This document shows positions 2-33,908 of a DNA stretch of 37,873 nucleotides, piece after piece. A program made the translations under genes and the position numbers. The DNA lies in NCBI GenBank assembly GCA_903944085.1, contig CAJAQO010000169.1, positions 1 to 37,873 of the forward strand, read 5' to 3'. The notes under the pieces were generated by a model. The model did not search any database. It was not told the DNA's origin and saw only the letters and a list, made by a program, of their open reading frames with translations. Each line of letters opens with the position of its first letter. The stretch's first letter is position 1. The DNA comes from an uncultured Verrucomicrobia subdivision 3 bacterium. GTDB taxonomy: Bacteria > Verrucomicrobiota > Verrucomicrobiia > Limisphaerales > UBA11358.

Positions 2-2515
2 GTCGGCGGCTTTCCAGTCATCCGCAAGCCGATGCGTCAATGGATGCTCCGCATAACCGCCTACGCCGAGAAACTGCTGGCCGACCTCGACACGATTGAC
101 TGGAGCGACTCGCTTAAGGAAATGCAGCGGAACTGGATTGGGCGTTCAGAAGGAGCGGAGGTCAGGTTTAAGGTGGCAAGGGTTCAGGGTTCAGGAACTG
201 AAACCTCCAACCTTGAACCTGAAACCTTCATCACCGTTTTCACCACCCGTCCCGACACTTTGTTCGGCGCGACTTACATGGTGCTCTCGCCGGAACACAA
301 ATTGGTGGATCAAATTGTGCCAAACCAATGGCCGGAGGGTATTCCCGACGTTTGGAAAGGCAAAACCGGGTCGGGGAACTCAATTCCGGCGTCGGGGAAC
401 TCAATTCCTGCGTCGGGGAATTCAACTCCGGCGTCTGGGAACTCAATTCCCGTGTCGGAGAACGCTGTTCCGGTGTCCGGGAATTCAATTCCTGCATCCG
501 GGAATTCAACTCCGGGATCGGGGAGTTCAATTCCTGAGTCCGGGAAGTCATTTCCCGCATCCGGGAATTCAATTCCTGAACGCCGGAACTCATTTCCTGA
601 ACCCGGAAAATCAATTCCCAAAGCAGGAACGACTCATTTTGAGACACCGAAGGCGGCGGTGGAGGCCTATCGGGTCTTTGCCGCCGGCAAGAGTGATCTG
701 GAGCGGACGGAATTGGCCAAGGATAAGAGCGGGGTCTTCACCGGTGCTTACGCGATCAATCCCGTCAACGGCGAGAAGATTCCCATCTGGATCGCCGACT
801 ACGTGCTCGCCAGTTATGGCACGGGCGCCATCATGGCCGTGCCCGCGCATGACGAGCGTGATTGGGAATTTGCCAAGAAATTTAGTTTACCAATTGAGCA
901 GGTTGTAATTCCAATCGGTTTGAAGCCGCTTGAAATCTCGCCAAAAAATTTCATTGGTGGTGCGATTGGCCCACTTGAAAAACCGTTTTGCGAAGAAGGA
1001 ATTGCAATTTCATCGCCAGAATCTGGCTGGCGTTTGAAAGATTTGTCGGGTGAGCGGTGCGACATTAAGGGCCTGCCCACTGCCGAAGCCAAAGCAAAAA
1101 TCTCCGCCTGGCTCGAAGAAAAAGGGCTCGGCAAGAAGACCATCAATTACAAGCTGCGCGACTGGCTGTTCAGCCGCCAGCGTTACTGGGGCGAGCCGTT
1201 TCCGATTATTTGGAAAAAGGATGCCGCCGGGAATTTGTATCACGAGGCGTTGCCGGAAAGTTCGTTACCACTGTTGCCGCCGACATTGGAAGATTACAAG
1301 CCAACTGCTGGCGGCGAGCCGCCGTTGGCGCGGGCAAAAGATTGGTTGCACGAAATTCCCGGCGCGACGCGTGAGACCAACACCATGCCGCAATGGGCCG
1401 GCTCGTGCTGGTATTATCTGCGCTATACCGATGCGAAAAATAATTCCGCGTTTGTCGGCAAAGACGCGCAAAATTATTGGATGGGCGCGAACGGTTGCAA
1501 GTTGAAAGTTGAAGGTTGCAAGTTGGATTCCAGCATGACGCAACCTGTAACTAGCAACCTGCAACCTGCAACTCCGGGCGTTGATTTATACGTCGGCGGC
1601 ACGGAACACGCCGTGTTACATCTGCTTTACGCGCGGTTCTGGCACAAGGTTTTGTTCGATCTCGGCTACGTCTCGACGCCAGAGCCGTTTTACAAGCTCG
1701 TTAATCAAGGACTGATTCTCGGCGAGGACGGGCAGAAAATGTCCAAGTCGCGCGGCAATGTGGTGAACCCCGACGACGTGCTCGTGGAATACGGCGCGGA
1801 TGCGTTCCGGCTTTACGAAATGTTCATGGGGCCGTTGCAGGACACGAAGCCGTGGAACACCAAGGGCGTCGAGGGCGTGTATCGTTTTCTCGGCCGTGTG
1901 TGGCGGTTGTTCGTGGATGAAAATTCGGAAACGGAATTTGAGCAGGCGGAAACATTAACCACCAAGGCACAAAGTCACCAAGATTTGCTGAACCTGATCA
2001 AACTCAATGCGGCCATCAAAGACGTGGCGGCGACGCCGGCGCAGTTGAAGACGCTGCACGCGTGCATCAAGAAAGTCACCGAAGACCTCGATGGGATGCG
2101 CTTTAACACGGCGATTTCCGCGATGATGGTTTTTGTGAACGACGCGATCACTTGGGAAACGAAGCCGTTGGCCGTGCTGCGCGAGTTTTTGATTTTACTC
2201 CAGCCGTTTGCGCCACACATCGCGGAAGAGTTGTGGCACAAGCTGCTTTCCGCTTTCCGCTTTCCGCTTTCCGCTTTGGCTTATCAGCCGTGGCCGAAGT
2301 TTGATGCGGCGTTGCTCGTCGAGAGCGAGATTGAAATTCCCGTGCAGGTGAACGGCAAATTCCGCGACACGATCAAAGTCGCCGTGGATGCCGACCATGC
2401 GACGCTGGAAGCCGCTGCGAAAGCCTCCGAGAAAGTGCAAACCTTCATCGCCGGTAAGACCATCAAGAAAGTCATTATCGTGCCGAAGCGGATGGTGAAC
2501 TTGATTGTGGGCTGA
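2..2515 (+). CDS. leuS: Leucyl-tRNA synthetase, 5'-truncated by window edge
   Basis: Charges tRNA-Leu with leucine in the cytoplasm (class I aminoacyl-tRNA synthetase). The reading frame is open from base 2 ([20 protein letters not shown], a typical LeuRS stretch), so the HIGH-containing N-terminus lies outside the window. Visible landmarks are the editing (CP1) domain with [12 protein letters not shown] and [20 protein letters not shown], the catalytic return [34 protein letters not shown], the KMSKS loop at bases 1736-1750, the anticodon-binding helices and the C-terminal domain. The protein carries four repeat-derived in-frame insertions at about 171-228, 371-622, 1493-1573 and 2244-2277. 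All key motifs around them are intact, so the enzyme is probably functional. It converges on the ArsR-methyltransferase gene with only 21 bases between the stops. Confidence 0.97.
171..228. repeat. Heptamer-based inverted repeat inside leuS
   Basis: The left half repeats the 7-mer GGTTCAG and the right half carries words such as CTGAAACC and CCTTGAACC that are its complement, so the segment can fold as an imperfect hairpin. It is translated in frame just before the conserved [13 protein letters not shown] motif and adds about 20 residues not expected in LeuRS. Confidence 0.75.
371..622. repeat. 12 x 21-nt tandem array inside leuS
   Basis: Twelve consecutive 21-nt units start at 371, 392, 413 and so on to 602, with no insertion or deletion. 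They encode twelve heptapeptides of the form S-G-N-S-I-P-A. The DNA core is close to GGGAATTCAATTCC with a variable spacer. The array lies within the editing domain, between the region before DVWKG and the conserved segment leading to [11 protein letters not shown]. Period and copy number match the arrays at 15870 and 31933. Confidence 0.93.
1493..1573. repeat. Heptamer inverted repeat inside leuS
   Basis: Runs of the 7-mers GTTGCAA, GTTGAAA and GTTGAAG are followed, after about 20 bases, by CAACCTG and GCAACCT words of the opposite sense, forming a long imperfect palindrome. It is translated in frame between YWM and [12 protein letters not shown], which are normally nearly adjacent in LeuRS. 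Confidence 0.8.
2244..2277. repeat. GCTTTCC heptamer array inside leuS
   Basis: Four head-to-tail copies of GCTTTCC plus a partial fifth are read in frame between the EELWHKL helix and LAYQPWP near the C-terminal domain. There is no inverted arm here, only a direct heptamer run. Confidence 0.8.
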
Positions 2516-4757: not shown

Positions 4758-4832
4758 AGTTTCAAGTGTTCAGTGTCAAGTGTTCAGCAACAAACCGTCG
4801 CGCTGAACACTTGAAACTTGAAACTGAACACT
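4758..4832. repeat. Heptamer inverted repeat 5' of four-helix-bundle gene
   Basis: Left arm 4758-4787 is built of GTGTTCA/GTGTCAA words and right arm 4803-4832 of TGAACAC/TTGAAAC words, with a 15-base loop, giving a potential long hairpin. The right-arm words recur at 5199-5230 on the other side of the next gene in the same orientation. Confidence 0.88.
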
Positions 4833-4838
4833 TTGGTT

Positions 4839-5210
4839 ATGGCCTATCAATCGTTTGAGGATTTGGAAGTTTGGAAAAGGGGCTGTCGTCTGGCGGTGGA
4901 AGTTTGCCGGACGGTGGGCGAGTCAAAGCAATATGCTTTGCGCGACCAGATGCAGCGGGCGGCCATTTCGATTTCCTCGAACATTGCGGAAGGCTGCGAG
5001 CGGGACAGCAAGCTGGATTTTATCCGCTTTCTCCGCATCGCCAAAGGTTCGGCGGCCGAACTCCGAACCCAAACTTACATTGCATTGAAATTAGAAATGA
5101 TCTCGAAAACGGATGCGGACAAGCATATCGCGGAACTAAAAGAAATTTCCGCGATGCTTCAAGGTCTCATCCGCTCAATAAACGACCGAATTGCAAAAAC
5201 TGAACACTGA
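4839..5210 (+). CDS. Four-helix-bundle protein (23S rRNA intervening-sequence / S23 family)
   Basis: A 123-residue all-helical protein starting MAYQSFEDLEVWKRGCRLAV, with the family hallmarks YALRDQMQRAAISISSNIAEGCER and FIRFLRIAKGSAAELRTQ. The family includes proteins encoded within 23S rRNA intervening sequences and is structurally related to Avd of diversity-generating retroelements. Its biochemical role is unknown. No reverse transcriptase or variable repeat is nearby. The ATG at 4839 is preferred over an upstream TTG because MAYQSFEDLEVWK is the usual family start. The gene lies between metK and ahcY, its flanks are near-identical heptamer repeats, and its last codons (KTEH) are themselves read from the 3' repeat, which suggests insertion as a cassette. 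Confidence 0.9.
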   Translation: MAYQSFEDLEVWKRGCRLAVEVCRTVGESKQYALRDQMQRAAISISSNIAEGCERDSKLDFIRFLRIAKGSAAELRTQTYIALKLEMISKTDADKHIAELKEISAMLQGLIRSINDRIAKTEH

Positions 5211-5230
5211 ACACTTGAAACTGAACACTT
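5199..5230. repeat. Heptamer repeat 3' of four-helix-bundle gene and 5' of ahcY
   Basis: Words CTGAACAC, TGAACACT and TTGAAAC repeat the right arm of the element at 4803-4832 in the same orientation. The ahcY start codon follows after 6 bases, as the four-helix gene's start follows the upstream copy. Confidence 0.88.
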
Positions 5231-12158: not shown

Positions 12159-12866
12159 ATGACGACGCTGCTCATCGCCACGCGCAACGCCCACAAGGTC
12201 GGGGAAATCCGTGCCATCCTCGGTGCCGGATTTCAATTCCTTACGCTCAAAGATTTCCCCAATGCCCCGGCCGTGGTCGAAGATGCGGCCACGTTCGCCG
12301 GCAATGCCACCAAAAAAGCCGTGGAACTGGCGCGCTGGCTGACCTTGCCAAATTCGGAATGTGGAATGCGGAATGCGGAATTGAATTTCGTCCTCGCCGA
12401 CGATTCCGGCCTGGAAGTGGATGCCTTGAACGGCGCGCCCGGCGTGCATTCCGCCCGTTTTGCGGCGCTGGATAAAATGGCAAACTCCACCGACGCGGAT
12501 AACAACGCCAAGCTGCTACACCTGCTGAAAGATGTGCCGCTGGAAAAACGGACCGCGCGTTTCCGCTGCGCCATCGCCCTGACCCCCACGGAAATCCGGC
12601 CGGAAAAAAGCCCGTCGCCGGAATCTGCGTCGCCGGTTTGCTACGCCAATCAGTTCGACGCGCAGACGCAAATTATTTTTGAGGGCGCTTGCGAAGGCCG
12701 GATTCAGCTCGCCGCGAGCGGTGCGGGCGGCTTCGGCTACGATCCGCTGTTTGTGCCGGACGGGTTCACGCAATCCTTCGCCGAACTCGGCGAGGATGTG
12801 AAAAATAAATTGAGCCACCGCGCCAAAGCGCTGGCGAAGCTGAAAGAATTTTTTACAACGAAGTAA
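12159..12866 (+). CDS. rdgB: XTP/dITP diphosphatase (HAM1 family)
   Basis: Removes non-canonical purine triphosphates (dITP, XTP) from the nucleotide pool. The 235-residue product has the family signatures LLIATRNAHKVGEI, FAGNATKKA, LADDSGLEVDAL, GGFGYDPLFV and LSHRAKAL. It is longer than the usual ~200 residues for two reasons: a heptamer-repeat insertion (NSECGMRNAELN, bases 12351-12387) just before the catalytic LADDSGLEVDAL, and a Pro/Ser-rich stretch after RCAIALTP. Both lie in loops, so activity is probably retained. Confidence 0.94.
   Translation: MTTLLIATRNAHKVGEIRAILGAGFQFLTLKDFPNAPAVVEDAATFAGNATKKAVELARWLTLPNSECGMRNAELNFVLADDSGLEVDALNGAPGVHSARFAALDKMANSTDADNNAKLLHLLKDVPLEKRTARFRCAIALTPTEIRPEKSPSPESASPVCYANQFDAQTQIIFEGACEGRIQLAASGAGGFGYDPLFVPDGFTQSFAELGEDVKNKLSHRAKALAKLKEFFTTK
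12351..12387. repeat. GGAATGC heptamer repeat inside rdgB
   Basis: Words GGAATGT, GGAATGC, GGAATGC and GGAATTG run head to tail, bounded by AATTC and GAATT, which can pair. It is read in frame, adding about 12 residues. Confidence 0.82.
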
Positions 12867-15460: not shown

Positions 15461-15850
15461 TCACGGAAAGCGCAGCACACACACGCCATAGTCAATCACT
15501 GGCCTTCCCGCTTCCGTGCGCCGGCAATTCTCCGGCACGGCATGATGCGCCTTGCGCCCGTCCCCGTCCGGTGCCGACACCACCGTCAGCGCCCCCGCCG
15601 CGCGCAGCAGCGCCAAGTGCTTGGACATCTGGCTTGGTTTGCCGCCCACCCGCACTGCCAACTCCTGCACCGAGAGCGGCGCACTGGAAATCAATTCCCG
15701 CAGAATATTCCACCGCACCGGATCGCTTACCGCCTTGAGCAGCAGACAAGGATTGGCAAAAACATTCGGCACATCCGCCGGCATCCCCAGAGCTGACGTT
15801 GCCGCTGCCAGTGAAGCTGACGCAGATGTATTGGAAAGCTCGTCCTTCAT
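15461..15850 (-). CDS. ArsR/SmtB-family transcriptional regulator
   Basis: A 129-residue protein with an N-terminal ~30-residue Ala/Ser-rich extension and an ArsR winged helix (LLKAVSDPVRWNILREL, LSVQELAVRVGGKPSQMSKHLALLRAAG). No obvious metal-binding Cys pair is seen in the recognition helix, so its signal is unknown. It is 44 bases upstream of the antiporter on the same strand and probably controls, or is co-transcribed with, the antiporter-phosphatase unit. Its promoter must lie in the region occupied by the 21-nt array. Confidence 0.85.
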   Translation of the reverse strand: MKDELSNTSASASLAAATSALGMPADVPNVFANPCLLLKAVSDPVRWNILRELISSAPLSVQELAVRVGGKPSQMSKHLALLRAAGALTVVSAPDGDGRKAHHAVPENCRRTEAGRPVIDYGVCVLRFP

Positions 15851-16199
15851 GCCGGAATATTAAGCCGACAACGTCGGCGAGACAAGTATAGTCGTCGGTT
15901 GGAATATAAATGAAGTCTGCGCGTCAAATACAGTCGTCGGAAGGAACATATTCTACGTTTTAACGCTAAATACAGTCGTATGAAGGAATATAAAGTGCTT
16001 CGGCGACACATAAATAGTCGTCGGAAAGAATGTATTTTACCGGGGAGATGCAAGTGTGGTCGTCGGCGGGCATGTATAGCTGGTCGGTAGGCAACGTCAA
16101 TACGTCGGCAGCGAAAACGGGCAAAGAAAACCCTCCGGCATGGTCGTGCCAGAGAGATTCCGGTTGCGCGGGCAATCGGGAAAGCCCGCCCGCGAAACT
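15851..16199. other. Gene-free 349-base region holding a 21-nt array
   Basis: No credible gene. It contains the upstream region of the leftward ArsR gene, the tandem array at 15870-16121 and, at about 16167-16190, a GC-rich imperfect hairpin (GCGGGC/GCCCGC) close to the valS stop that lacks a T-run and is at best a weak terminator. Confidence 0.7.
15870..16121. repeat. 21/42-nt tandem array, about 12 units
   Basis: A GTCGTCGG-A/T-rich unit begins at 15891, 15933, 15975, 16017 and 16059, exactly 42 bases apart each time, with a degenerate copy at 16101. A second, more variable 21-nt unit ending in A/T-rich AAATA alternates with it. Counting both types gives about 12 units of 21. The main unit reads roughly GTCGTCGGAAGGAATATAA. 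No spacer-like unique sequences are present. Confidence 0.88.
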
Positions 16200-19061
16200 T
16201 CAGCCCAGTGTTTCCAGCGAGACCTGCGTATGGGCGAGCTTCGCTTTCCAATCGGCCAGCCGTTGTTCGTGCTCGGCGAGCACCGCCGGCGGGACTTTCT
16301 GCGTGAAGTTCGGGTTGGCGAGCTTCTGTTCCACCTTGCTGATCTCGGATTGGATCTTATCCAATTCTTTCGTGAGCCGGGTTTTTTCGGCCGCGACATC
16401 AATCAAGCCTTCGAGCGGCAAAAACAATTCGCCCAGTTTGGATTGCACCGTCGGCGTGCCTTTGGGCGGCGGATAATCGGCGTTCACTTCCAGCGCCTCG
16501 GCGTTGAGCAGCAGCTTGATCACTTCGGCGTCGTGCGGCGTGAGGTGTTGCGCGGGCTTGAAGACGTATTTTACTTTCTTCGCGGCCTGGATGTTGCCGG
16601 CGCGGCGCAGATCGCGGCCGTTGCGGACGAGTTCGTATTTCGTGTCCGTCATTTCGAGATAACAATCGTCGAGACCGTAGTGGCCTTTGAAATCGTCGTC
16701 GAACGGCAGCGGCCATGGGGCATTCATGATGGTCTTGCCGCCCTGATTGTCCGGCATGTCGGTGGCATAACCCATGCCGTGCCAGAGTTCCTCCGTGATG
16801 AACGGCAGGAACGGATGGAACAAACGGATTGTGTGTGAGAGCACAAAATCAATCACCGCGAGCGTGTTGGCCTTCTGCTTCGTGTCGGTGCCGAAGAACA
16901 CGGCTTTGCACGCCTCCACATACCAGTCGCAATATTCGCTCCAGAAAAATTTGTAGAGCGCGGCGGTGGCTTCGCTGAATTTGTATTCGTTCAGCGCAAT
17001 GCTGACTTCGCGGATCGCGGCGTCGAGCTTGAGCAAAATCCATTTGTCGTCCGGCGTGAGCAACGTGCGTTCAATCTCGCCCTGAATTTCAAACTGCTCG
17101 GACGGGGCGTCCTCGCTCGCAGGCGAGGCGCCTGCGCTCCCCTGCATCTGGCGGAAGCGGCAGGCGTTCCAAAGCTTGTTGCAGAAGTTGCGGCCGAGCT
17201 CCACATCCTTCTCGTCGAAGAGCACGTCCTGACCAAGCGGCGCGCTGCGCATGGTGCCGAAGCGGAGGGCGTCCGCGCCGTATTGGGCGATGAGCACGAG
17301 CGGGTCGGGCGAATTGCCGAGCGTCTTGGACATCTTGCGGCCCTGCTTGTCGCGGATGATGCCGGTGAAATAAACATTCTGGAACGGCAAATCTCCCATG
17401 AACTCGTAGCCGGCCATAATCATGCGCGCGACCCAGAAGAAAATGATGTCAGGCCCGGTGACGAGGTCGGTGGTCGGATAAAATTTCTTCAACGTGTCGG
17501 TCGGCTCCGGCCAACCCATCGTGGCGAACGGCCAGAGCCACGAGCTGAACCAAGTGTCGAGGACGTCTGAATCTTGCGTCCAGCCTTCGCCAGACGGAGC
17601 TTCGAGGCCGCAGTGGACTTCGCCGTTCCGATACCACACCGGAATCCGATGACCCCACCAAAGCTGGCGACTGATGCACCAGTCCTGAATGTTCGTCAGC
17701 CAGTGGTCGTAAACCTTCGCCCACCGCTGCGGATGGAACCGCATCTTCCCGGGGAGCGCGCCCGCCCCGGGCGCAGCGGCGGACGCCCCGTCCGCCGCAG
17801 TGAGGCGAGCGGATTGTCCGTGAGCGTCAAAACTTGTTGCGCGTCCTGAGTCGCCAGCGGGGGCGCTGGCTCCTACGCCCGGGGCGGGCGTGCTCCCAAA
17901 TCCATCCTGCTCCACGCAGGCCTTGGATTCCGGGACGGCGGGATACTTCAAAAACCATTGCTCGCTCAAACGCGGTTCAATCGGCACATCCGCGCGCTGG
18001 CTGAAACCGACGTTGTTCTCGTAAGGCTTTTCTTCGACCATCACGCCCTGTTCCGTGAGCAGTTCCACAGCGACCTTGCGGGCTTTGAACCGATCCAGCC
18101 CCGCCAGCGGGCCGCCAGCCAGGACGTTCATCGAGCCGTCGGCATTGATAACCTCAATGAGCGGCAGCTTGTGACGCGTGCCGATGTCGAAGTCCGCCTT
18201 GTCGTGCGCGGGCGTGACCTTGAGCACGCCGGTGCCGAATTCAAAATCCACATGCTCGTCGCCGATGATCGGGATGAGCTTCTGCTCGCGCGGCAATTCG
18301 GCGGGCAGCGGACGCACGATGTGCTGGCCGATGAGATGCGCGTAGCGCGGGTCTTTCGGATTCACGGCCACGGCGGTGTCGCCGGGAATCGTCTCCGGCC
18401 GCGTGGTGGCGATGGTGAGCCAGGTGTCCGGCGCTTCCGCGACCTGCACCTTGAAGTGATACATGAAACCTTTCTGCGGTTTCATTTCCACTTCCTCGTC
18501 CGACAATGCGGTCTGCGACACGGGGCACCAATTCACCATCCGTTTGCCGCGATAGATGAGACCTTTCTTGTAAAGCTCGACGAATACCTTCTGCACGCAG
18601 CGGGAATACTCCGGGTCCATCGTGAACCGTTCGCGCGTCCAATCGCACGAGCAACCGAGCTTCTTAAGCTGGTTGATGATGATGTCGCCGTGCTTTTCCT
18701 TCCACGCCCAGACGCGCTTGAGAAATTCTTCGCGGCCGAGATCGTGGCGGGATTTCTTTTCCTCCTTCTTGAGCTGCTTTTCCACCATCACCTGCGTGGC
18801 GATGCCGGCGTGGTCGGTGCCGGGCAGCCAGAGAACTTCCTTGCCATCCATGCGCGCCTTGCGGCTGAGGATGTCCTGGATGGTGTTGTTGAGGACGTGC
18901 CCCATGTGGAGCATCCCGGTGACGTTCGGCGGCGGGATGACGATGGAATACGCGGGCTTGGCGGACTGCGGATCGGCGGTGAAGCAACCCTGCTTCAGCC
19001 AGAAGTCATACCATTTGTCCTCGACGGACTGCGGCTCGTAGGCTTTGGGAATTTCAGACAT
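16200..19061 (-). CDS. valS: Valyl-tRNA synthetase
   Basis: Charges tRNA-Val with valine. The 953-residue protein shows the HIGH-type motif MLHMGHVLNNTIQDIL, LPGTDHAGIATQ, the editing domain with TTRPETIPGDTAVAVNP, WCISRQLWWGHRIPVWY, the KMSKS motif GRKMSKTLGNSPDPL, the anticodon-binding domain and the C-terminal coiled coil (TRLTKELDKIQSEISKVEQKL). Two insertions are repeat-derived: a 146-base element with terminal inverted repeats (17752-17897) before the WISRQ region, and a short GC hairpin (about 17111-17142) after the KMSKS region. Catalytic motifs flank them intact. Confidence 0.97.
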   Translation of the reverse strand: MSEIPKAYEPQSVEDKWYDFWLKQGCFTADPQSAKPAYSIVIPPPNVTGMLHMGHVLNNTIQDILSRKARMDGKEVLWLPGTDHAGIATQVMVEKQLKKEEKKSRHDLGREEFLKRVWAWKEKHGDIIINQLKKLGCSCDWTRERFTMDPEYSRCVQKVFVELYKKGLIYRGKRMVNWCPVSQTALSDEEVEMKPQKGFMYHFKVQVAEAPDTWLTIATTRPETIPGDTAVAVNPKDPRYAHLIGQHIVRPLPAELPREQKLIPIIGDEHVDFEFGTGVLKVTPAHDKADFDIGTRHKLPLIEVINADGSMNVLAGGPLAGLDRFKARKVAVELLTEQGVMVEEKPYENNVGFSQRADVPIEPRLSEQWFLKYPAVPESKACVEQDGFGSTPAPGVGASAPAGDSGRATSFDAHGQSARLTAADGASAAAPGAGALPGKMRFHPQRWAKVYDHWLTNIQDWCISRQLWWGHRIPVWYRNGEVHCGLEAPSGEGWTQDSDVLDTWFSSWLWPFATMGWPEPTDTLKKFYPTTDLVTGPDIIFFWVARMIMAGYEFMGDLPFQNVYFTGIIRDKQGRKMSKTLGNSPDPLVLIAQYGADALRFGTMRSAPLGQDVLFDEKDVELGRNFCNKLWNACRFRQMQGSAGASPASEDAPSEQFEIQGEIERTLLTPDDKWILLKLDAAIREVSIALNEYKFSEATAALYKFFWSEYCDWYVEACKAVFFGTDTKQKANTLAVIDFVLSHTIRLFHPFLPFITEELWHGMGYATDMPDNQGGKTIMNAPWPLPFDDDFKGHYGLDDCYLEMTDTKYELVRNGRDLRRAGNIQAAKKVKYVFKPAQHLTPHDAEVIKLLLNAEALEVNADYPPPKGTPTVQSKLGELFLPLEGLIDVAAEKTRLTKELDKIQSEISKVEQKLANPNFTQKVPPAVLAEHEQRLADWKAKLAHTQVSLETLG
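17111..17142. repeat. Short GC hairpin element inside valS
   Basis: Arms CGCAGGCG and CGCCTGCG (17118-17125 and 17129-17136) with loop AGG, flanked by GCTC/GAGC-like words. It is translated as GSAGASPASED, inserted between QMQ and the Glu-rich linker where ValRS has no conserved sequence. Confidence 0.75.
17752..17897. mobile_element. 146-bp MITE-like element with 22-bp terminal inverted repeats, inside valS
   Basis: Terminal arms 17752-17773 and 17876-17897 match in 21 of 22 positions as inverted repeats. Inside are two further perfect hairpins: 10-bp arms GCGGCGGACG (17776-17785 and 17789-17798, loop CCC) and 7-bp arms GCCAGCG/CGCTGGC (17853-17859 and 17864-17870, loop GGGG). The whole element is read in frame as an Ala/Gly/Pro-rich insertion. 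No transposase is encoded and no clear target duplication was recognised. Confidence 0.8.
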
Positions 19062-19077: not shown

Positions 19078-19160
19078 CAGCCACAGATTTTCACAGATGA
19101 AACACAGATGAAAAACTGCCTTTTCAAAATCTGTGTTTCATCTGTGTCCATCTGTGGCTA
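19078..19160. repeat. CACAGATGAAA-family inverted repeat between cimA and valS
   Basis: Both arms are built from the 11-nt period CACAGATGAAA/CATCTGTG words (left 19078-19113, right about 19126-19160). It fills the gap between cimA's stop and valS's start. The same family occurs at 33187-33333 and 33751-33908. Confidence 0.88.
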
Positions 19161-31004: not shown

Positions 31005-31724
31005 TCACGGCGTCTTGCCCGTGGACGTCGCCGGCGCTGGTGCCGGCTTCGATTTGTTCGACGACGCGGTGTAGGTGGTGGGGATGCTGCTGCGGATCAT
31101 GTCGCCCTCCGCCGTGCCGGGCAGGAACATTTTCGTAGCGTCCGCATACCAGGCCATGATCACATCGTTGAGATCATTGCACATCTGCTCCAGCTTGCCC
31201 GTCTCCTCACTGGCGGCCGAGCTGGCGTCCTTGAAGGCAATCTGCAAATCCTCCGCGCACTGTTTGCGCAGCGCCTTGTAGGCGGCGTAGCTGTTGGCCG
31301 TGCTGGGGTTCCAGGTCGGAGCCGCCTTGCCCCAAGCTGATTCCCAGGCCAGCGCCTGCGCGAGAATTTCTTCCGGCGTGGAGCCGTCGGCGTGCAGGCC
31401 GGAGACCACCGCGAGATTCGCCGGATCGTTGCGGAACTTGGTTTTGGCCATGTTCAATCCCTGCACGGTCCATTGATGCAGCGCGTTGAGCTGCGTCTTC
31501 CAAGTGCCCTCGGCCAAAGCCAGCGCGCGCCCGGCCTGGCTGGCGAGTTCCTCCTGGCCGACGACCGGCGGGGTGGCCAGGTTGTTGCCGGTGATCGCTT
31601 CCAGTTGGGTTTCCATCTGGTCAACGGATTCCTCCTGCCAGATCCATTTTTCGGCGAGCGCCTTGGCGGCGCTGATGGTCGCGCGGGCGCGACCTTTGAC
31701 GAACTCAATGAATTTATTTTTCAT
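31005..31724 (-). CDS. Unknown soluble helical protein
   Basis: A 239-residue protein I do not recognise. It starts MKNKFIEFVKGRARATISAA, has no signal peptide or membrane segment, is mostly helical and fairly rich in Ala, Glu and Trp (EKWIWQEESVDQMETQLEAI, HQWTVQGLNMAKTKF), and ends in a disordered Ser/Thr/Ala/Pro tail (KSKPAPAPATSTGKTP). Codon use matches its neighbours. It is a single-gene unit with its own strong terminator and an AT-rich leader; a 12-unit 21-nt array lies upstream. No function is assigned. Confidence 0.75.
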   Translation of the reverse strand: MKNKFIEFVKGRARATISAAKALAEKWIWQEESVDQMETQLEAITGNNLATPPVVGQEELASQAGRALALAEGTWKTQLNALHQWTVQGLNMAKTKFRNDPANLAVVSGLHADGSTPEEILAQALAWESAWGKAAPTWNPSTANSYAAYKALRKQCAEDLQIAFKDASSAASEETGKLEQMCNDLNDVIMAWYADATKMFLPGTAEGDMIRSSIPTTYTASSNKSKPAPAPATSTGKTP

Positions 31725-31930
31725 AGTTTTACTTGGTTAAACGGCCGGCTTTTCCGACCTGAAACGATTTAAGCGCCGGCTGGGGAAAATATTCAAGCAA
31801 AAATTTTAATTATTTGAATGACTTAAAAGCATTGTTTCTAATTCTAATCTAAATAATTTCTACTGCACCCGCGCGACGTTTGCCGTGGTCACCATTCAAT
31901 CGGTCAAAAAGCCCGAACTTTTGCCATTTC
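31725..31930. other. AT-rich leader and promoter region of the unknown gene
   Basis: A strongly AT-rich stretch (31790-31860) suits a promoter for the leftward gene. The transcribed leader can pair GCCGGC at about 31745 with GCCGGC at about 31775. No consensus promoter could be fixed. Together with the array it forms a 496-base region with no credible gene. Confidence 0.5.
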
Positions 31931-31932
31931 AA

Positions 31933-32184
31933 TACGAAGAGACCTGGCACGGATACGAACAATGTTGGCATGAATACGACCAGCAGCGACGCGAATACGA
32001 ACAAAGTTGGCATCAACACGTCCAACCCGTGCTGGAACACAAACAGGCCCGGCACAAACACGATCACGGAGCACGCGGATACGACCACGGAGCATTTTAA
32101 TACGAACCAAGCGCCCGCAAATACGAACACGGGCCAGGCGAATACGAACAGACGGCTGAAGCATACGAACAGGCAGACCATGGA
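31933..32184. repeat. 12 x 21-nt tandem array
   Basis: The word TACGAAC or a variant begins at 31933, 31954, 31975, 31996, 32017, 32038, 32059, 32080, 32101, 32122, 32143 and 32164, exactly 21 bases apart with no slippage. The unit is close to TACGAACAAAGTTGGCATGAA. Open frames on both strands with heptapeptide periodicity (such as NTNxxxx) are a by-product of a stop-free 21-mer. Same period and copy number as the arrays at 371 and 15870, different sequence. Confidence 0.93.
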
Positions 32185-32220: not shown

Positions 32221-32754
32221 TTACGGGGTCTTGGAGTCGCCTTGCAGCTTCTTCACCTGCGTGGCCAAGTCGTTGTATTTGGCGACGACGTCGTTCCGGT
32301 CTTTCACCTCGTCGTTGTATTTTTGCACGAGGTCGTTGCGCTGGGAGATCAGGTTGGTGATGGTTTCGTTCTGCTGGTCAATGCCGGCGTAGGCGTCCTT
32401 CAATTTCGCCTCCAACGTGTCCACGGCAATTTTGTATTGGGTGATTGTGTTGGTGAGGTTGAGGTTGGCAAATTGCAATTGCGCGAGGTCGGCCTTTTGC
32501 GAAATGACAAGCTGCTCATTGGTCGCGACAACAGCCTTGATTTCGGTAAGGCGCGCGTCCATCTGGTTCACCTGATGATTCAACGTGGCGACGGAATTGG
32601 TCGCGTTCTGAATGGCGGCGTTTTTTTCATAGATCATGCCGTTCATGGTGATGATTTCATCGCGCTGGATAGTTTGTTCATACCATTGCCAGACGCACAG
32701 ACCGCAGAGGCCGAGCGCGAGGACGATGAGCAGGTTTTGTTGGAAGTTTTTCAT
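32221..32754 (-). CDS. Membrane-anchored coiled-coil protein
   Basis: A 177-residue protein with one N-terminal membrane anchor (NLLIVLALGLCGLCVWQWY) and a long coiled coil from about 35 to 170 rich in Asn, Gln, Leu and Lys (KNAAIQNATNSVATLNHQV). No catalytic motif. Its start is one base after the second exbD stop, so it is translationally coupled to the TonB energising complex and may be an accessory or periplasmic spacer. Not recognised as a named family. Last gene of the TonB operon. Confidence 0.78.
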   Translation of the reverse strand: MKNFQQNLLIVLALGLCGLCVWQWYEQTIQRDEIITMNGMIYEKNAAIQNATNSVATLNHQVNQMDARLTEIKAVVATNEQLVISQKADLAQLQFANLNLTNTITQYKIAVDTLEAKLKDAYAGIDQQNETITNLISQRNDLVQKYNDEVKDRNDVVAKYNDLATQVKKLQGDSKTP

Positions 32755-33186: not shown

Positions 33187-33333
33187 GGCCACAGATGAAA
33201 CACAGATGAAACACAGATTAAGTATCCGTGGATTTCGCAGATGACGCGGATGAAAATGTAAGTTCAACAAATCTGCGCAAATCCGCGCAATCTGCGGACA
33301 ACCAATCTGTGTTTTATTTGTGTTCATTGGTAG
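33187..33333. repeat. CACAGATGAAA-family palindromic element between the two exbD genes
   Basis: Outer arms of CACAGATGAAA words (33187-33220 and 33302-33333) enclose an inner pair of CGCAGATGACGCGGATG-like and AATCTGCGCAAATCCGCG words, so the element is a palindrome inside a palindrome. It fills nearly the whole 159-base gap. Confidence 0.85.
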
Positions 33334-33750: not shown

Positions 33751-33908
33751 TTTAGCCACGGATGAAACAGAGATGGACACAGATTCTTGGTCGCGCGAAG
33801 AACGCGAAGGCTGCGAAGAGAAATTTCACAACGCCTTCCATCGCGCGCGCCCAATTCTTTTCACTTGGATTCAATCTGTGTTTCATCTGTGTTAATCTGT
33901 GGCTTTAA
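33751..33908. repeat. CACAGATGAAA-family palindromic element between exbB and exbD
   Basis: Outer arms of about 40 bases (left from TTTAGCCACGGATG, right ending AATCTGTGGCTTTAA) enclose a different core with CGCGAAG/GAACGCG words. The right end covers the exbB stop codon. Confidence 0.85.

Follow-up and report, generated by a model that had tools for sequence, protein, structure and literature searches.

The window analysed here is the whole of contig C169, 37,873 nucleotides from a 5.79-Mb draft genome (G000) of an uncultured Verrucomicrobia subdivision 3 bacterium. Scanned at lags of 4–129 in a 105-bp frame with a match cut-off of 0.52, it contains three strong tandem arrays and no others of that strength, along with two marginal rows also above the cut-off (lag 12 at 0.524 and lag 96 at 0.533); the same scan returned no array rows in ten third-order Markov surrogates of the window. 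All three arrays lie where the initial annotation had placed them, and its description of a 21-base register kept without indels over about 250 bp was confirmed for each. The lag-21 match, measured on segments slightly longer than the arrays themselves, is 0.70 for array 1, 0.34 for array 2 and 0.48 for array 3. Array 2 is stronger at lag 42 (0.48) than at lag 21 because it is an alternation of two half-units. Tandem Repeats Finder called array 1, recovered array 3 in part only (31929–32020, period 42) and missed array 2, and scans of the window against Rfam (at the gathering threshold) and for tRNAs gave no match. Shorter tandem runs also occur in the window: 7-base runs of differing sequence, one third of 21 bases, at 1494–1525, 1540–1572, 2245–2277, 4758–4787, 5199–5230 and 12351–12381, and 10–11-base runs (CACAGATGAAA, AATCTGTGTTT), about one helical turn, at 19092–19156, 33190–33296 and 33873–33901.

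Array 1 (366–620) consists of 12 units of 21 bp with a dyad-symmetric core, GGGAANTCAATTCC, and lies in frame within leuS (2–2515, forward strand, its 5′ end cut by the window), in a loop of the editing domain. In an alignment of 30 LeuS proteins the array is present in this genome's enzyme and absent from the other 29; the same loop holds other inserts in five relatives (L026, L032, L040, L042 and L049) and no insert in the remainder. At the place of array 1, the insert of L032 (G038) matches the IF3 N-terminal domain (Pfam, 67.7 bits), and that of L049 (G010) looks like it. A parallel is found in AlaRS: the enzyme of G021 (Pfam tRNA-synt_2c) carries an in-frame 21-bp array, and the AlaRS of this genome carries one at the same place with an unrelated unit. 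AlaRS hits were obtained in 41 genomes. The AlaRS reading frames of G021 (L054:7109–10714) and of this genome (L379, contig C239) also contain, in frame, an insert that looks like a Y1 transposase of the IS200 type, with a Pfam Y1_Tnp match of 30.1 bits in the former and a match in the latter too. The LeuS and AlaRS arrays show how much repeated in-frame insertion the essential enzymes of these bacteria will accept.

Array 2 (15871–16121) comprises about 12 units of 21 bp in paired, 42-bp alternation. It is flanked on one side by an ArsR-like gene (15461–15850, reverse strand; Pfam HTH_20, 43.1 bits) that starts 20 bp from the array, and on the other by valS (16200–19061, reverse strand; tRNA-synt_1 and Val_tRNA-synt_C), which ends 79 bp before it. 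We compared 29 valS 3′ loci from other species. One (L235, in G014) has a 21-bp array at the same place with a different unit, another (L240) has a weak 21-lag stretch that we read as part of the next gene, and the remaining 27 have no 21-bp array at a threshold of 0.52. An array at a further locus, L282 (G041), stands about 40 bp before a gene that matches both the window's HTH gene (E = 1.8e-8) and Pfam HTH_20. HTH_20 genes follow array 2 and the L282 array alike.

Array 3 (31931–32184) has 12 units of 21 bp, each with a conserved part, AATACGAACA, and a variable part. The uncharacterised gene P0002 (31005–31724, reverse strand; 239 residues), founder of the family that we call A2, starts 207 bp from the array; the protein has no Pfam match, and its single-sequence structure model, with a mean pLDDT of 42, is too poor to use. 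Upstream of the array, a gene at 32221–32754 (reverse strand) ends 37 bp away and shows weak DUF4407/ATG16 coiled-coil matches below cut-off. The loci of this gene in 18 other-species relatives contain no 21-bp array, and their nucleotide sequence gives no alignment to the array 3 flank beyond position 32,230, where the upstream gene ends, which leaves an empty site undefinable.

Period and unit sequence across the lineage

The initial annotation had proposed a common period of 21 bases and a common size of about 12 units, and had held that a broad spread of periods and lengths elsewhere would make the three matches coincidental. We surveyed 575,727 readable bases (576 kb) from other contigs of the same genome at a row threshold of 0.55 and obtained 22 array rows, 14 of which have period 21 or 42; the other eight have periods of 6, 7, 7, 24, 24, 33, 39 and 60. 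The 14 include two neighbours within a single locus (L206), one array cut by a contig end (L200), and, as read from their translations, one (L086) that is a coding coiled coil and one (L084) that probably is. The 21-base class accounts for 10 of 23 array rows in other species of the genus (873 kb), 2 of 6 in four genomes of other families (120 kb), 2 of 14 around leuS in named genomes that are mostly Verrucomicrobia (648 kb) and 2 of 21 around leuS in named genomes that mostly belong to other phyla (641 kb). The low count around leuS in the mostly Verrucomicrobia set indicates that the 21-base trait is unequal in strength across the phylum. A 21-base period thus characterises the lineage, namely this genome and its genus; the proposed common period therefore holds, with no broad spread of periods. 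Lengths do spread broadly: arrays of the 21-base class have 4.5 to 20.3 units in this genome's sample and 6.2 to 17 in other species of the genus, which rules out 12 units as a rule, and that the three arrays of the window match in length is a coincidence.

Unit sequences were compared among 35 arrays. The claim that the three window arrays are unrelated in sequence stood, as no pair of them ranks among the top 40 of the 595 array pairs by similarity. Twenty-six pairs exceed z 3, mostly within one TTTCCC...GGGAAA group that spans several loci and species and has a T-rich flank in common, several of its loci having originally been found by similarity to array 1. Beyond this T-rich stretch, flanks in common are limited to orthologous genes, one flank common to L075 and L205, and short dispersed repeats. 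The possibility that all arrays are copies of one mobile sequence was ruled out: array 1 DNA matches only itself in its own genome, and array 3 matches itself plus one 34-bp stretch across 49 genomes.

The units run head to tail and range from near-identical to decayed, with decayed edges and 42-bp higher-order repeats. Dyad symmetry exceeds that of all 60 column-permuted versions in 15 of the 35 arrays, among them array 1, while arrays 2 and 3 are not dyad-symmetric. The initial annotation had also suggested that two helical turns per unit would place bound proteins on one face of the DNA. The first harmonic of the conserved columns agrees for arrays 2 (p = 0.005) and 3 (p = 0.001), where conserved positions are clustered in one half of the unit; in array 1 they are unclustered (p = 0.48); over all 35 arrays the clustering is weak (0.173 and 0.149 versus 0.1).

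Two gene families with upstream arrays

Following one unit group led to a family of proteins of about 206–250 residues, A1, whose C-terminal part is FN3-like and whose N-terminal part appears helical from its sequence. Family A1 has 15 matches in this genome, some not full length, and is present in 25 of 49 genomes of the genus. We cut out 30 A1 loci by protein similarity, of which 27 with at least 500 bp of upstream sequence were testable at an array threshold of 0.52. A 21-bp array lies within 600 bp upstream in 21 of these 27 (all except L319, L320, L326, L327, L329 and L334), and in 16 of 22 once the seed and the four loci that had come to light by their arrays are set aside (L308, L311, L312, L325 and L333). 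The corresponding figure for control genes, predicted with our own crude gene finder, is 22 of 833 (8/272 in this genome's sample, 10/512 in other species and 4/49 in other families).

Family A2 is rarer, occurring in 6 of 49 genomes of the genus and in 7 of 146 genomes of an order-wide sample (6 of 145 other genomes), with none found in viral contigs. Within the genus, 7 of 8 testable A2 loci are preceded by a 21-bp array within 600 bp, or 6 of 7 without the window's own locus (L338); the exception is L339, and two loci (L345 and L347) had too little upstream sequence to test, although an array is visible at the contig end in L347. In other families of the order the array is present at 11 of 14 testable A2 loci. 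Across both families the arrays have about 5 to 18 units, and the gap that separates them from the gene measures about 90 to 480 bp. Promoter-like sites in this gap score hardly higher than in shuffled gaps (8.87 versus 8.41), and p is 0.05 or lower in 3 of 27 modules. Domain scans of six A1 and A2 proteins found no partition or initiator domain; what matches there were, to FN3, Ig-like or phage tail domains, are weak. An early suspicion that A1 and A2 are homologous gained no support from profile comparison (probability 0.3%, E = 0.24).

Unit type is inherited with the gene. Among 30 A1 and A2 modules with an array, units are more alike where the proteins are more nearly identical (Mantel r = 0.452, reached in 0 of 5000 permutations). 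The mean unit z rises from 0.15 where the proteins have no match (207 pairs, 4 above z 3) to 0.92 below 45% identity (154 pairs, 19 above), 2.04 at 45–60% (57 pairs, 15 above) and 3.88 above 60% (17 pairs, 10 above). Of the pairs with 45–85% identity, 25 exceed z 3, and the stretch separating array from gene is alignable in 3 of them and not alignable in 22; hence the unit tends to persist longer than the DNA beside it, which is what selected sites would show. Most of these pairs come from one A1 clade and are not independent. Three A2 pairs (L340–L341, L342–L344 and L343–L347) show the same pattern, the gap being alignable in L343–L347.

In the reverse direction the link is less close: among 23 arrays chosen regardless of genes, only three (array 3, L011 and L200) have an A1 or A2 gene as neighbour. 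Most sampled arrays lie between predicted genes. Their position before gene starts was discarded as evidence because most intergenic places lie so. Four arrays (L075, L205, L090 and L225) are near small genes without a Pfam match, those of L075 and L205 being homologous to each other, and further arrays stand beside ordinary genes such as those for LpxK, adenylate kinase and a glycosyl hydrolase. At L204:16100–17000 (contig C38 of this genome), an array of about 19 units precedes a carbonic-anhydrase-like gene (Pfam Pro_CA), and 50 bp belonging to the beginning of this gene reappear, at 84%, on the far side of the array. At one Y1 transposase locus of this genome (L380, contig C52), an in-frame Y1_Tnp match is flanked by the repeated peptide VARASRPCEQSKELTGETPVPL, in a reading frame that reads like DNA polymerase III alpha.

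Possible origins and roles of the arrays

The association between arrays and genes points to an undescribed gene-control or DNA-organising module. The reading that we prefer, with a rough probability of 0.45, is that the arrays are upstream cis elements, specific to each gene lineage, that act as binding arrays for one protein per two helical turns. Under this reading the small genes of at least two uncharacterised multi-copy families, A1 and A2, would almost always need such an upstream element. Each unit would form a single protein-binding site, and the exact period would reflect two turns of B-DNA, which would let bound proteins stack on one face. The recognised sequence would belong to each gene lineage and drift along with the gene, and the whole array might serve as a long cooperative operator, or as a nucleoprotein segment, by which its gene is controlled or marked. 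Array 3 would constitute such a module together with the gene at 31005–31724, array 2 lies directly before the HTH gene, and array 1 may be an ectopic in-frame array tolerated in the LeuS loop. The period, the association with two gene families and the passing on of unit type with the gene are what the data show; that a protein binds, that it does so cooperatively, that the gene responds and that arrays next to other genes work likewise are the parts that we infer.

This preferred reading is supported because arrays are far commoner before A1 and A2 genes than before control genes, because period 21 or 42 accounts for 14 of 22 rows here versus 2 of 21 in mostly other phyla, because unit similarity follows protein identity, mostly in pairs whose intervening DNA is no longer alignable, and because 15 of 35 arrays are dyad-symmetric and the conserved columns are one-sided in arrays 2 and 3. 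Against it count the lack of dyad symmetry in arrays 2 and 3, the location of the LeuS and AlaRS arrays within genes, the 3 of 23 gene-blind arrays that adjoin A1 or A2, the presence of arrays at Y1 transposase loci as well, the restriction of similar units to 15 of 57 pairs at 45–60% identity with many similar pairs from a single A1 clade, the weak average column clustering, the near-equality of promoter-like sites in real and shuffled gaps, the lack of a Pfam match for P0002, and the occurrence of A2 in just 6, and of A1 in 25, of 49 genus genomes. A broader version, which we hold to be unlikely, would extend the scheme across the chromosome as self-addressed modules, in which small proteins each recognise a private 21-bp array upstream of their own gene and co-diverge with it under one geometry.

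Alternatively, the arrays could be functionless minisatellites, generated by mutational copying of 21-bp lengths (for example by slippage or pitch-guided strand switching), with the link to A1 and A2 a by-product of tolerance. The gradation from near-identical to decayed units, the decayed edges and the 42-bp higher-order repeats are all consistent with such an origin, as are the unrelated arrays at orthologous sites, namely in AlaRS of two species (z −0.33) and at the valS 3′ end in G000 and G014. The strong enrichment before two gene families and the retention of unit type where neighbouring DNA has diverged argue against it, and we consider it an unlikely account. The possibility that the arrays are coding, with 21 bases as seven codons of heptad or linker peptides, draws on the in-frame LeuS and AlaRS arrays, on at least one sampled array that is a coding coiled coil (L086) and on the reading frames of the 35 arrays: at least one frame is stop-free in 33, versus 24.5 expected from column-permuted arrays, and open frames total 90 versus 51. 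Yet the majority of sampled arrays lie between predicted genes, the L235 and L282 arrays have no open frame, and codon-harmonic power over the 35 arrays is close to uniform (0.116 versus 0.1); we hold a coding role to be very unlikely.

A mobile, REP-like origin would have Y1 (IS200/RAYT-like) transposases spread palindromic units as arrays, with the adjoining genes as cargo or there by chance. Y1 transposase loci (L365–L380, in G000, G017, G019 and G021) indeed hold a 21-bp array within about 1.5 kb in 7 of 16 cases, or 5 of 14 without the two AlaRS loci, compared with only L235 and the weak L240 among the 29 valS 3′ loci and 18 loci of the gene upstream of array 3. The recurrence of the TTTCCC...GGGAAA group across loci and species with its common T-rich flank, and the absence of array 1 from the other 29 aligned LeuS proteins, would likewise suit mobility. 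We nevertheless judge this origin decidedly unlikely, given that the arrays have no constant sequence (26 of 595 pairs above z 3), that arrays 1 and 3 have no second copy in their own genome, and that units follow the neighbouring gene.

Comparison with known repeat systems

Like bacterial minisatellites and VNTR loci, the arrays are tandem, with decayed edges and higher-order repeats; unlike them, they keep one period in otherwise unrelated arrays and are strongly linked to two gene families. Unit length, which varies among unrelated minisatellite loci, is here 21 or 42 in 14 of 22 rows, and an ordinary minisatellite with a locus-specific period does not fit. The heptanucleotide repeats of cyanobacteria are tandem 7-base units of fixed sequence spread over the genome. 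The TAACTGA repeats of Beggiatoaceae, in the parts of the report consulted, are likewise a 7-base tandem unit of fixed sequence across the genome (PMC4679880). Both resemble the present arrays in having one defined tandem unit length genome-wide and differ in that their units are 7 bases long and fixed, whereas those described here are 21 bases long and locus-specific. REP and BIME repeats, which are associated with Y1 transposases, are described in the sections consulted as palindromic units located mostly between genes (PMC8266576, PMC2817692). To that extent the likeness is in palindromic units mostly between genes, with Y1 genes present here and some of them near arrays; the arrays differ in their long head-to-tail runs, their locus-specific unit and their want of any constant sequence, and no one palindromic sequence recurs genome-wide. 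Constant-sequence repeat families such as these do not fit. The parts of the full-text literature consulted contain no description of 21-bp arrays in Verrucomicrobia or of their link to these genes.

If the arrays form a class whose common feature is geometry, exactly two helical turns, and not sequence, and which goes with uncharacterised multi-copy gene families, then regulation or chromosome structure would be organised in a novel manner in this little-studied lineage, and the proteins of A1 and A2 would become easier to approach. Plasmid partition centromeres and replication iterons are helix-phased tandem sites that precede a small gene and whose sequence varies by replicon. Tandem, helically phased sites are likewise found just upstream of the small A1 and A2 genes, their sequence differing by locus. 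The arrays depart from iterons and centromeres in being many per chromosome with a period that is always 21, and in the lack of a partition or initiator domain in the six A1 and A2 proteins scanned. Among functional kinds, the iteron or centromere array comes nearest.
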